The notes under the pieces: model-generated | Told to the model about the DNA's origin: nothing | Database searches by the model: none | The model's input: only the letters and a program-made list of their open reading frames with translations | In this document: piece by piece, positions 14,376 through 21,111 of the stretch | Layout of the letters: the number at the start of each line of letters is the position of its first letter | Numbering within the stretch: the first letter of the stretch is position 1 | Origin: Syntrophomonas sp. | GTDB lineage: Bacteria; Bacillota; Syntrophomonadia; Syntrophomonadales; Syntrophomonadaceae | NCBI GenBank assembly: GCA_016841875.1 | Contig: JAENYG010000007.1 | Coordinates: 10,475 to 74,474 of the forward strand | Direction: 5' to 3' | Length of the DNA stretch: 64,000 nucleotides | Position numbers and translations under genes: made by a program

Positions 14376-14948
14376 TTGGATTGTGGTGCTCATCATGTCC
14401 ATATATCAATTCCGGTATCAGATATCCAAATCAAATATAAGCTGAATAAGGACCGTGAATGGGTTTTACGGCAGTTAGAGGAAACTGTTGTTTATGCCAG
14501 GGAGGCTGGGGCAGGTGTTAGCGTTGGAGCCGAGGATGCATCTCGGGGGGATTTTCGATTCCTGGTACAGTATGCTTGTTTGGCTCGTGAATTGGGAGCA
14601 GAAAGATTGCGCTACGCTGACACAGTTGGAATTTTAGACCCGTTTATGACCTACAATATATTTCAAAAACTTATTAAAGAAAGCGGTATGGAGATTGAAA
14701 TACACGCCCACAATGATTTTGGTATGGTTGTAGCCAATACACTGGCTGGAGCTCAGGCAGGAGCTTTTTTTGCAAGTACTACGGTTTTAGGATTGGGCGA
14801 AAGGGCAGGTAACTGTCCGCTGGAAACAGCGGTTAAAGTACTGGATCGCTTTCTGCCCATTTCTGTTAATGTCAACCAGAATGCTCTACAGAGCTTAATT
14901 GAGTACGTAAATTCTATAACAGATAAAAAATGCTGCACACCTGCATGA
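14376..14948 (+). pseudogene. Homocitrate synthase (NifV)-like remnant, both ends missing
   Basis: The frame carries the middle of a DRE-TIM synthase of the NifV/isopropylmalate synthase type: VHISIPVSDIQIKYKL, VSVGAEDASRGD, ADTVGILDPF, EIHAHNDFGMVVANTLAGAQAG with the metal-binding HxH, and GLGERAGNCPLE. The N-terminal strand with the catalytic DxxRDG, present in all active enzymes, is missing, and the protein stops well short of the usual ~380 residues. No other nif gene is nearby. I infer a deletion remnant of a homocitrate or related Claisen-condensation enzyme. Confidence 0.7.
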
Positions 14949-15717
14949 TTGTTACGAAACTTGATATTCAGTTAAGCACCATTGATAAATTTCTAAGTTA
15001 TCAACCTGACTGAGCAAGCAATTCTAACAGTGGTTTTACCCTGCCGCCTAGTATTTCGGGACCTGGAGCAGAGCCAAGTCCAATCCAGCAGATAGACAGG
15101 ACATATCTCGAACTTGTACCTCACCGATGGCTGCCAAAACAAAGGGCCGCATTTGTACCCCAATCTTTATTAATCCCCCGCTTACATTTCATAATAATTA
15201 GTTACCCCTGAAAAAGTCGACTTGGGTGTAAGGTGATGCATAAATATACTTACGCCCAGTCTTCGCATGGACAGCATCAAATGTTTGTTGACTGGCTTCA
15301 GGGGGACAGGGCTAATTCACATCCTTGTTCAGTAGCCCTCTTGCCCCGTCCATGGGGCTCTCCCCCTTCCGTCAGTCAACTTCACAGGATGCTGTAACCC
15401 AGCTCCGCCAACGGTCGTTAGTATATTTATACATACCCTTGAGTAGTTTTTAGAGTTTTTCAGGGGGAACTAATTAAGCCTGGTTTACTAAATTCTGATG
15501 ATAAGGGATGGATTATCGTGTTTTGGGGCCGTAATATAAGTTGGTAAGTTAATGCCTGACCCATCTGGCAATCTATCCTGATATTACCTTTGACTATAAT
15601 CCATTGCTATAGATAGAATTGTATGTATAAATGGCAAGCAACATACAGGAATGGAATTTAGCGGCCTAATAGAATAGGAACTTATAGTGCAGGAATACAA
15701 TGGATGGGGATTAAATT
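14949..15717. other. Intergenic region containing a 282-bp palindromic element
   Basis: 769 bases with no supportable gene. The main content is the element at 15195-15476. The flanks (14949-15194 and 15477-15717) show no gene, RNA or terminator that I can recognise; the last ~15 bases supply the ribosome binding region of the peptidase gene. Confidence 0.6.
15195..15476. mobile_element. 282-bp MITE-like or structured-RNA element with nested inverted repeats
   Basis: The ends TAATTAGTTACCCCTGAAAA... (15195-15215) and the complement of 15456-15476 match at 20 of 21 positions. Moving inward, 15236-15250 pairs with 15420-15434 (14 of 15), ACAGCATC 15271-15278 with 15388-15395, GTTGACTG 15287-15294 with 15373-15380, AGGGGGA 15300-15306 with 15361-15367, GGGCTA 15309-15314 with 15333-15338, and a terminal hairpin GCCCC/GGGGC at 15343-15358. 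There is no ORF. The symmetry over the full length fits a non-autonomous transposon or a folded RNA. Confidence 0.65.
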
Positions 15718-16971
15718 ATGAATAAGAGACTTTCCTGGAGCCTGGTAATTGCCGTATTAGGATTTTTCATAGCCTTTTCTATCTTTACGTCGGTCTATAG
15801 GGGGGACAAGCCCACAGTAGTCACAGCTGAGGCACTGGCAGAAGAGACCGGGAATGCCTCTTTGAATGGTCAGATAAGCGACCCAGGTGGGAAAGAAATT
15901 ACTCTATATGGGTTTGAATGGGGAAACACCCCCAGCCTGGGTGAAGAGGCCATCTGTCAGGACAGCCCGGATGAAAATAAGTCATTTATCGTTAGCATTA
16001 ATGACTTGCAGCCCGGTACTACATATTATTTTCAGGCATTTGCAGTAAATTCTAAGGGTTCTGGTTACGGAGATATCAAAACTTTTACGGTCCCCATAGA
16101 TGCTGCGCCTACCGTTACTATCAGCAGTCCGGAGGATAATCTAAGCATTTTTAGTGGGGAAATAGTTAAGATAGCAGCTGAAGCTGCAGATGACAAAAAA
16201 GTGGAGTCTATGGGGCTTTATGTTAACGATAGCTCAGCTGCCAGCGTAGAAGGAGATGCTCTGACTTATGATTGGGATACCAGCGGAATAAGCCCGGGGG
16301 AATATGTGCTCAAGGTCAGTGCTGATGATGGAACCCAGGAAGAATCTAAGTTGATTACGGTATTGGTGGAAGAAAAGCCGGAAGTGATCAATCTGGCTGC
16401 CAATGACCAGCAGCCTGTGATTAAGGAAACTTATACTGAAAGCATACCAGTATCTCGATCGGTGGAGGCCACAGATACTTATAAATATCCTAATTTGAGC
16501 AAAGTTCAGGGGTCGTTTGGACAATTCTATTACCGAGATACTTCGGGTGGCAGAATAGAAATAGATCCTGGCTGGATTGCAGAAAATATTGTGACTATAA
16601 CCCTGCCTGGATTGAATAGAAAGGTACAGGTACATAAGGATGCGGCAGATAATTTCATAGCTGCTTTTAATTACATAAAAAATGGTACAACTTGGATAAA
16701 TGGTAAACAGGTTTCTTTATTAAGTCTTATAGATAGTATGGATGGAACATTTGTCACCCGTCATGTGAATTGGGACTCGGCCCGGGGTTTAAGTAACCAC
16801 TCCTGGGGAATAGCCATTGATATCAATGCGGATGATCATTATAGATATGTTGATCCTAACACTGAACCATATGATCCCAATTTGATACTCTGGGAGAAAG
16901 CCTTTAAACCGGCGGGATTCAGCTGGGGCAACTCCTATTCAGATTCCATGCATTTTGAGCTGCTGTATTAA
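15718..16971 (+). CDS. Exported M15-type peptidase with FnIII/Ig-like domains
   Basis: 417 residues. An N-terminal hydrophobic segment (SWSLVIAVLGFFIAFSIF) is a signal anchor. Residues ~40-125 resemble a fibronectin type III or similar beta-sandwich (LQPGTTYYFQAFAVNSKGSG), ~130-225 an Ig-like domain (VTISSPEDNLSIFSGE...YDWDTSGISPGEYVLKV). The C-terminal ~150 residues are a VanY/M15-type D,D-carboxypeptidase-like domain with zinc ligands in SNHSWGIAIDIN (SxHxxGxAxD) and MHFEL (HxE). It probably trims peptidoglycan stem peptides at the outer face of the membrane. A terminator follows at 17000. The preceding 282-bp element separates it from older remnants. Confidence 0.85.
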   Translation: MNKRLSWSLVIAVLGFFIAFSIFTSVYRGDKPTVVTAEALAEETGNASLNGQISDPGGKEITLYGFEWGNTPSLGEEAICQDSPDENKSFIVSINDLQPGTTYYFQAFAVNSKGSGYGDIKTFTVPIDAAPTVTISSPEDNLSIFSGEIVKIAAEAADDKKVESMGLYVNDSSAASVEGDALTYDWDTSGISPGEYVLKVSADDGTQEESKLITVLVEEKPEVINLAANDQQPVIKETYTESIPVSRSVEATDTYKYPNLSKVQGSFGQFYYRDTSGGRIEIDPGWIAENIVTITLPGLNRKVQVHKDAADNFIAAFNYIKNGTTWINGKQVSLLSLIDSMDGTFVTRHVNWDSARGLSNHSWGIAIDINADDHYRYVDPNTEPYDPNLILWEKAFKPAGFSWGNSYSDSMHFELLY

Positions 16972-19113: not shown

Positions 19114-19175
19114 GAAGCAGGGGGACGTTCTTTTTGCTTCCTTCAAAGGAAGCAAAAAGAACGTCCCCCTGCTTC
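19114..19175. repeat. REP-like palindrome with GGGGGACGTT core (copy 1)
   Basis: A perfect 28-bp inverted repeat: 19114-19141 is the exact reverse complement of 19148-19175, loop TTCAAA. The outer part contains CAGGGGGACGTTCTTTTT. Its core is shared with the palindrome at 45021-45088. Such elements are typical REP sequences spread by REP-associated Y1 transposases, although none is encoded in this window. Confidence 0.8.
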
Positions 19176-19239
19176 CGGTTTAATATGGCAGGAATTGCAG
19201 ATATTAAATAAGGAGATTATGATAAGGAGTGAAGAAATT

Positions 19240-19833
19240 ATGATCCTTAGTTTAACCGGCTTATTGTTAGCTGGAATAATAGCTGCACTATATTTTCTGA
19301 TTAAGTACCGTCAGGAATACCGGCATTTAAGAAAGATTAAATTAGATATACTGCAAACCAGCCATGACATGTATCAGACTATGGCGTTGGGTCTATACCA
19401 GCGCTTTAAACAGGAAGAAGGCAAAGAACACAAAAAGGAAAATCCTATGGAATTTGAAAATTTTGTAGCCCGGGTGATGGTGAATTATTATGGGGGACAG
19501 GCTTTTGTAACCGGGGGATCCGGTGATTATGGGATCGATATCGAGCATGATCACCGGGCCGGCAAGTATTTGGGACAGGTAAAATGCTATGCTCCAGATC
19601 ATTTTGTTCCCTATGAACCAATTGCTGTAATACATTCACAGATTACTAAACAAAATGCTAAAGGGGGATATGTAGTAACAACCAGCGATTTCACACCTCA
19701 TGCGCGTAAATATGCGGAAGGGCTTGATATAATGCTGATTAACGGGGCCCAATTGGTTGAATTGTGGATGCAGGGACTGGAAAAGGCAGCTAAACCGTAT
19801 AATTATCAGAAAAACAAATCTGAATCAGCATGA
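19240..19833 (+). CDS. Membrane-anchored Mrr-like restriction endonuclease-fold protein
   Basis: About 197 residues. One N-terminal membrane helix (LTGLLLAGIIAALYFLI), a short coiled linker, then an Mrr_cat/restriction-endonuclease-fold domain: MEFENFVARVMVNYYG, GGSGDYGIDIEHDH with the catalytic Asp, LGQVKCY with the Q-x-K motif, and VVTTSDFTPHARKYAEG. The family cleaves DNA, often modified DNA; a membrane-tethered form could act on incoming DNA. No methylase or partner is nearby. Start is uncertain: ATG at 19240 has GGAG ten bases upstream; ATG at 19219 has it only three bases upstream. Confidence 0.8.
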   Translation: MILSLTGLLLAGIIAALYFLIKYRQEYRHLRKIKLDILQTSHDMYQTMALGLYQRFKQEEGKEHKKENPMEFENFVARVMVNYYGGQAFVTGGSGDYGIDIEHDHRAGKYLGQVKCYAPDHFVPYEPIAVIHSQITKQNAKGGYVVTTSDFTPHARKYAEGLDIMLINGAQLVELWMQGLEKAAKPYNYQKNKSESA

Positions 19834-19992
19834 TCATACTGCGGGGGATGGAAGCGCGGGGATGATCATAGCGCTTTCAAAACTATCAATTAAATAGGAA
19901 TTTAAAGACAGAATCATATTAGTGGGGGATAATTGTATTCGGGCTGCTAATTAAAACCAACCATAACGGGCGTTTGAAGTGGGTTGAGAGTA

Positions 19993-21111
19993 ATGAGAAT
20001 TATATCCAAAAAGCAGATAATGATGGTTTCCCTGGTGCCAGGGGGGATATTATTGACCTGGCTATCTAGCCACATACCTGAAACGGTCGAGAAGCTATAT
20101 TCTAATGGATTTTATAGAATGTTAGGGCAAGCTTTGAGCAGACTTACCGGGTTAGTGTCAGTATCAATAGCTGAATTACTCACCTTGATCGCCTTACTGG
20201 CTTTGGCTTACTTTACGGTCAAGTATTTAGTAAGCATGGTGGTCAGAAGAACCTCAGCGCAAAAGATTTCACTTGCAAGAGCAGCAGTTTTAATACTCAT
20301 GGTATGCAGTATGGTATACTTTTCCTTCTTGCTCATATGGGGGTTTAATTATTATCGCCTTCCTTTTGCTGATATTGCCGGTTTGGATACTGCCGATATA
20401 AGGGCAGAGGAACTTGAGGTACTATGTACAGAGCTTATACAGGAGGCTGATGAACTGCGCGCTGCAGCTGCCGAAGATGATAATGGAGTAATAGCTATAG
20501 CTAAACGAGAAATACTTGAACAGGCCTGGCAGGGTTATGCCATGGCCGAGTCCATGTATCCAGAACTGGGAGGTGCTTACGGCAGGCCCAAAGCGGTTAT
20601 GTTATCAAGAGTCATGTCCGTCTTCGGGCTATCAGGGATATATTTTCCCTTTACCGGGGAAGCCAATGTTAATATTGAAGTTCCGGCCCCTCTTTTTCCA
20701 GCTGCTGTGTGTCATGAAATGGCTCATCAACGAGGATTTGCACGAGAAGATGAAGCTAATTACATCGCTTACCTTACCTGCCGAAAGCATACCGATCCTT
20801 ACTTTCAGTATTCGGGCACTCTCTTAGCTCTGGTTAATGCAATGAATGCCCTGTCAGCTTATGACTATAGCAAATATCTGGAATTAAGGCAGGAGTATGC
20901 AGAGGGAGTTGAACGTGATTTATCTGCAGTACAGCAATTCTGGCAGCAGTACCAGGGACCTGTTTCCAGGGCTTCTGCCAGGGTGAATGACGTTTATCTA
21001 AAATCTAACCACCAGAAAGATGGTATAAATAGTTACGGCAGGATGGTAGAACTTTTAATCGCAGAAAGAAGAGCAGGTTTGAGTATCTCTCGGACGGCCG
21101 GGAAATATTGA
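19993..21111 (+). CDS. DUF3810-type membrane protein with zinc-peptidase-like HExxH
   Basis: About 372 residues. Three hydrophobic segments in the first ~125 residues (MMVSLVPGGILLTWLSS, SIAELLTLIALLALAYF, AAVLILMVCSMVYFSFLLIWGF) are followed by a soluble domain on the outer side. That domain holds CHEMAHQRGFAREDEANYIAYL (about residues 245-266), an HExxH zinc-binding motif with a downstream Glu, as in DUF3810 proteins. I infer a membrane metalloprotease, substrate unknown. Start: ATG at 19993; the TTG at 19984 is less likely. A hairpin terminator follows at 21395. Confidence 0.8.
   Translation: MRIISKKQIMMVSLVPGGILLTWLSSHIPETVEKLYSNGFYRMLGQALSRLTGLVSVSIAELLTLIALLALAYFTVKYLVSMVVRRTSAQKISLARAAVLILMVCSMVYFSFLLIWGFNYYRLPFADIAGLDTADIRAEELEVLCTELIQEADELRAAAAEDDNGVIAIAKREILEQAWQGYAMAESMYPELGGAYGRPKAVMLSRVMSVFGLSGIYFPFTGEANVNIEVPAPLFPAAVCHEMAHQRGFAREDEANYIAYLTCRKHTDPYFQYSGTLLALVNAMNALSAYDYSKYLELRQEYAEGVERDLSAVQQFWQQYQGPVSRASARVNDVYLKSNHQKDGINSYGRMVELLIAERRAGLSISRTAGKY

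Follow-up and report, generated by a model that had tools for sequence, protein, structure and literature searches.

The window analyzed here is a stretch of 64,000 nucleotides from contig JAENYG010000007.1 of Syntrophomonas sp. (assembly GCA_016841875.1). An ORF that stops at 14948 and another that begins at 15718 border an intergenic region that contains a short palindromic element. The upstream ORF (14376-14948) resembles an N-terminally truncated homocitrate or isopropylmalate synthase and is possibly a remnant.

An earlier note, made from the sequence alone, had placed a 282-bp nested palindrome at 15195-15476. These coordinates turned out to be exact, and the nested inverted repeats were borne out. 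The terminal repeats, described as 21 bp long and matching at 20 positions, correspond to outer arms (15195-15218 and 15453-15476) in which 22 of 24 positions are paired, with 20 pairings in the first 21 positions. Further inwards lie arm pairs at 15230-15257 and 15413-15440 (28 nt, 82% paired) and at 15287-15309 and 15358-15380 (23 nt, 78% paired); the innermost of the pairs listed is formed by 15301-15321 and 15326-15346. As the note had also claimed, the element lacks coding capacity: no ORF of 60 or more amino acids overlaps it. On each side, the outermost six bases (TAATTA) belong to the target duplication, and the element proper is delimited accordingly in Table 1.

Strong folding was predicted for both single strands, with energies of -120.8 kcal/mol (plus strand) and -122.9 kcal/mol (minus strand), compared with means of -74.5 and -75.3 kcal/mol in shuffled sequences (z = -9.9 and -9.2, respectively); none of 200 shuffles folded equally well. 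The centre, which the earlier note had described as a hairpin, is a stem with two side hairpins and not a single long hairpin. Outside the element, positions 15621-15632 of the window (GTATGTATAAAT) are a perfect 12-nt complement of part of the right inner arm (15425-15436). The flanking DNA is also found in the sister species G002, and the complementarity is probably due to chance.

Table 1. Features of the palindromic element, in window coordinates.
Feature	Position	Strand	Basis
Left target site duplication, TAATTA	15195-15200		Related elements carry a duplicated TANNTA at their two ends
Left terminal inverted repeat, GTTACCCCTGAAAAAGTC	15201-15218	+	Common to 1.67-kb ISNCY elements L167, L168 and L178
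Non-autonomous element (MITE), 270 bp, no ORF	15201-15470		Copies in own genome and in relatives
Inner AT-rich arm, ATGCATAAATATAC	15236-15249	+	Outer boundary of the core common to Syntrophomonadaceae vehicle types
TwoAYGGAY-like structured core	15258-15410	-	RF01731, 29.7 bits (gathering score 43)
Hairpin 2, contains ACAAGGAUGU (15319-15328), second AYGGAY-type loop	15308-15338	-	A.GGA in 29/29 copies
Hairpin 1, stem GCCCC/GGGGC, loop AUGGAC	15343-15358	-	A.GGA in 27/29 copies; compensatory stem changes
Inner AT-rich arm, GTATATTTATACAT	15421-15434	+	Partner of 15236-15249
Right terminal inverted repeat, GTTCCCCCTGAAAAACTC read on the minus strand	15453-15470	-	Pairs with the left repeat
Right target site duplication, TAATTA	15471-15476		As for the left copy

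Terminal repeats, copies and empty sites

The terminal repeats GTTACCCCTGAAAAAGTC and GTTCCCCCTGAAAAACTC match the ends of insertion sequences (ISs) of about 1.67 kb found in S. wolfei subsp. methylbutyratica and Moorella. A pattern scan for TANNTAGTTYCCCCTGAAAAA, with the left TANNTA included in the pattern, was performed across 84,980 species; among the matches listed, such ends occur in Moorella, Paenibacillus, Desulfallas, Syntrophomonas, Dehalococcoidia and others. Some of the two-ended elements of about 1.56-1.70 kb in this set of listed matches encode a DDE transposase of 457-458 amino acids, and two of these proteins score well above the cut-off (325 bits) of the NCBIfam ISNCY model NF033593 (L178, from S. 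wolfei, 479 bits; L168, 510 bits). The short two-ended elements with the same ends (63-420 bp, again among the matches listed) are miniature elements (MITEs), and one of them (L135, 284 bp) is a relative of the window element with TACTTA on both sides.

Identical hexamers were found in 16 of the 27 two-ended elements that carry TANNTA on both sides, against an expected fraction of 1/16 (p = 4e-13), the central two bases on the far side not being fixed by the search pattern. Non-palindromic flanking hexamers were direct in 13 cases and inverted in none; hence, it is the target that is duplicated, and the hexamer does not belong to the inverted repeat. TAATTA, the hexamer of the window element, is palindromic and ambiguous on its own; a related copy in the same genome (L002) has TAAATA on both sides.

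The host genome (G000; 3.97 Mb in 90 contigs) was searched for additional copies, as the earlier note had proposed. A second full-length copy with 75% identity (L002) is present elsewhere in that genome, together with partial ones. Matches were also detected in 10 of 41 related genomes, with 19 in G001, 17 in G022, 16 in G002 and 14 in G012. Many G001 contigs stop inside repeats of the element, as expected if copies are near-identical and dispersed.

The note had also proposed a search for empty sites, and one was found in the window itself: at 19941-19953 (GGGCTGCTAATTA), TAATTA is intact and unoccupied, while a copy sits there in G002. This copy (L006, 89% identical) lies 3.6 kb downstream of the locus orthologous to that of the window element. 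Its flanks align to window positions 19174-19953 (left) and 19941-21073 (right), and ORFs are collinear on both sides. From these alignments, the window holds the empty site GGGCTGC-TAATTA. The right end of L006 is altered, with loss of its last bases. Reciprocally, the window copy is missing from the orthologous intergenic region of G002. Its absence is imprecise, as about 382 bp are gone, not 276, including about 100 bp of flanking DNA.

A third insertion (L002/L023) is common to both species and shows 90.8% identity, compared with about 91% in its flanks; 8 of its changes keep pairing and 7 break it. Because divergence proceeds at the rate of the flanks, single insertions look neutral after fixation, and fixed copies do not show signs of host-level selection. 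One reading of the solo terminal-repeat hairpins (L042, L043 and L089) was that they lack a nested insertion; it was rejected as their joints differ, which indicates internal deletions. These three loci and L036 are internal-deletion derivatives, the smallest of which (L042, 59 bp) consists of two joined terminal repeats.

The MITE-like nature suggested by the earlier note is thus upheld by terminal repeats shared with an intact, autonomous IS, a duplicated target, additional copies and empty sites. Like ISNCY-family MITEs, the window element has their terminal repeats, a TANNTA duplication, no ORF and a length below 300 bp; unlike them, it has an interior that is unrelated to the IS and is conserved as a structure. 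It is a real MITE and a new member of those of ISNCY-type ISs. Neither the host assembly nor G001 yielded an intact ISNCY transposase, and G002 has a decayed remnant only, so the case for mobilization in trans rests on the shared ends. Six contig ends of G001 run into an IS with ends of the window type. The mover would presumably be an ISNCY-family DDE transposase acting in trans, which would recognize the 18-bp terminal repeats, insert at TANNTA and generate the 6-bp duplication; transposition of the MITE might be of the cut-and-paste or of the copy type. A blastn search of the element against plasmid and phage collections yielded no matches.

The structured core

In an Rfam search, the minus strand of the element matched TwoAYGGAY (RF01731), a family that had been reported as a likely RNA whose function was not known (PMC2864571). 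The score, 29.7 bits, is below the gathering score of 43; for this reason we call the core divergent, or related, and not a listed RF01731 member. A looser Rfam scan of 20 copies gave no TwoAYGGAY matches; filters tighten with more sequence, and the matches were recovered in a genome-scale search. In G022, matches to RF01731 coincide exactly with the copies found by DNA similarity.

Covariation, whose analysis the earlier note had recommended, was examined in an alignment of 29 cores with 46 consensus pairs. Compensatory changes are found in 22 of the pairs, and the consensus fold pairs 95.2% of the cells. Cells with changes on both sides amount to 111, compared with a mean of 34 in shuffled alignments and with 17 or fewer in slid structures. 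The window copy has two hairpins on a shared stem, with loops AUGGAC and AAGGAU, and the A.GGA of the loops is retained in nearly all the aligned cores (Table 1). The two observations that the note had named as fatal to its proposal, lack of a second copy and lack of compensatory changes, were thus not made.

A covariance model (R1) was built with 14 cores of the window element family, none of which is an undoubted TwoAYGGAY member. R1 matches the window at 15260-15407, the window copy being part of the training set. In unrelated clostridial families, R1 finds loci that are Rfam-positive, at the same coordinates (for example, L068, 1e-23; L250, 5e-15; L229, 4e-10). The core and TwoAYGGAY share the fold, the position and spacing of two A-Y-GGA-Y hairpins, and reciprocal model matches, and differ in that the window copy scores under the gathering threshold. 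On this comparative basis, we regard the minus strand of the interior as a divergent form of the TwoAYGGAY RNA.

Folding favors the minus strand in 15 of 16 representatives, by a median of 10.6 kcal/mol, and G.U exceeds A.C (18 versus 6, p = 0.02) in pairs predicted on both strands. Strand bias and G.U excess point to a single-stranded molecule, either RNA or DNA. The other possibility raised in the earlier note, a structured non-coding RNA, is likewise supported, as the interior is a covarying, strand-biased structure homologous to TwoAYGGAY. Transcription of the core is presumed.

An alternative is that the core is selected as DNA, not as RNA, and that a one-strand hairpin or a cruciform aids transposition or spares the host. 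Copies do sit in hairpin-rich targets (terminators and REP-like palindromes, described below), pairing is kept by element lineages and not by fixed copies, and a promoter search found none beyond chance. However, one strand folds consistently better and G.U outnumbers A.C, which is not the behavior of a symmetric cruciform, and the conservation of A.GGA in the loops suggests a partner with sequence specificity. A hairpin of single-stranded DNA would also fit both the strand bias and the conserved loops. Altogether, we regard selection as DNA as unlikely. The combined description, a MITE with a divergent TwoAYGGAY core, is very probably correct; the cargo of the MITE would then be, instead of random filler, a TwoAYGGAY module on the minus strand that has A-N-GGA in the loops of its two hairpins.

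TwoAYGGAY on several mobile vehicles

TwoAYGGAY is present in 39 of 399 genomes of the phylum, and matches per genome reach tens (55 in G152, 29 in G078, 28 in G209 and 23 in G323). In 49 of 54 loci (expected, 5%), inverted arms continue past the limits of the Rfam model; some of this extension may belong to the RNA as an outer stem. Of the 45 copies examined in G152, 40 lie between direct repeats of 16-33 bp (median, 24), and 37 of these repeats fold as hairpins, which identifies them as duplicated terminators. The elements of G152 (L280-L299 and L322-L341) have ends CAGACTGTAGACAAAG and sit in intrinsic-terminator hairpins, the whole hairpin being duplicated. Orientation bias was not detected at the 40 terminator insertions, which include five loci without strand normalization: a T-rich stretch follows the right copy in 25, and an A-rich stretch precedes the left copy in 22.

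Other genomes harbor other vehicles. Copies in G022 have ends GATTCCACTGC..., and 7 of 9 show an exact 6-bp duplication; copies in G001 have ends GAGACCACTGAAAAAGTC and 9-bp duplications such as GGACGGTTC and GAACCATCC. The G001 copies L007, L015, L022, L024-L030 and L102 each interrupt a REP-like palindrome (GGTGACAAGGGGACGGTCCTTTTGTCACC) in its middle; intact palindromes of this kind stand near G001 insertions, and L102 has an intact one beside the interrupted one. Two TwoAYGGAY loci of G275 (L259 and L266) are flanked by inverted REP-like hairpins (GTCACGGGGACGGTTCTTCTGACTC) in a REPIN-like arrangement. Vehicle ends are alike in the window, G022 and G001 (CC[AC]CTG[C]AAAAA). In ISNCY-type MITEs of other clostridia, a TwoAYGGAY-like core was sought and found to be absent. 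Four loci from Desulfallas, Desulfotomaculum and Peptococcaceae (L110, L147, L149 and L190) combine ISNCY-type ends with another nested palindromic interior (GCGCCGGAGAACTCGCGCCC...).

The differences in ends and duplications around TwoAYGGAY indicate that one core rides several vehicles. As far as these sequences tell, TwoAYGGAY turns out to travel, in many copies, on several kinds of mobile DNA across clostridial genomes. In the literature searched, we found no description of TwoAYGGAY as mobile or repetitive, nor of a terminator-targeting IS of this kind; within these limits, the association of TwoAYGGAY with vehicles that are mobile and often aim at hairpins appears to be new.

Two additional explanations can be rejected as highly improbable. 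One is a host small RNA gene or 3'UTR element that merely looks repeated: this would agree with the earlier description of TwoAYGGAY as a probable RNA but not with empty sites, target duplications, IS termini and tens of copies, nor with the near-neutral decay of a fixed copy. The other is a REP/BIME-type repeat moved by an HUH (RAYT) transposase, which nested palindromes and the REP-like hairpins around some relatives (in G001 and G275) might suggest; however, the window type has long terminal inverted repeats, a 6-bp target duplication and a DDE-transposase partner, and the REP sequence of G001 is not the element but its target, of which 9 bp are duplicated.

CsrA as a candidate partner

Hairpin 2 of the window copy carries ACAAGGAUGU, a loop sequence that resembles the CsrA consensus, and a CsrA protein is encoded in the host genome (E = 9e-25). 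Binding of CsrA by TwoAYGGAY was predicted by Gardner and Eldai (PMC4333381). In the phylum sample, CsrA is found in 38 of the 39 genomes with TwoAYGGAY, compared with 243 of the 360 others (Fisher p = 1e-5, ignoring phylogeny). Among close relatives, no such association is observed: G022, with 17 copies in a 99% complete genome, is devoid of CsrA, and so are G024, G029, G031 and G033. CsrA-sequestering RNAs of the CsrB/RsmZ type likewise present paired GGA hairpin loops; the window element differs from them in having only two GGA loops per copy and in being dispersed on a transposon. Repeat-borne CsrA sponges were not found in the literature searched.

The core may plausibly bind CsrA. A possible further step, which may well not hold, is that the two loops bind CsrA and that the dispersed copies act as decoys. 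Instead of CsrA, the partner may be another GGA-binding protein, or the role may be one of DNA. A broader and rather unlikely speculation is that TwoAYGGAY is a selfish structured RNA module whose GGA loops titrate CsrA or another GGA-binding protein, so that a decoy network would spread by transposition. Its vehicles would be, under this joint speculation, elements with ISNCY-type ends and TANNTA and elements with other ends and duplications of 6 bp, 9 bp or about 24 bp, several of them aiming at hairpins such as terminators and REPs.

These observations call for an orphan Rfam family to be reread, not as host regulatory loci but as something that mobile DNA carries, in numbers of up to tens in a genome. 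They also explain the duplication of some clostridial terminators and REP palindromes on either side of a structured insert. The element described here provides a testable case of a transposon that carries an RNA module with predicted protein-binding capacity.
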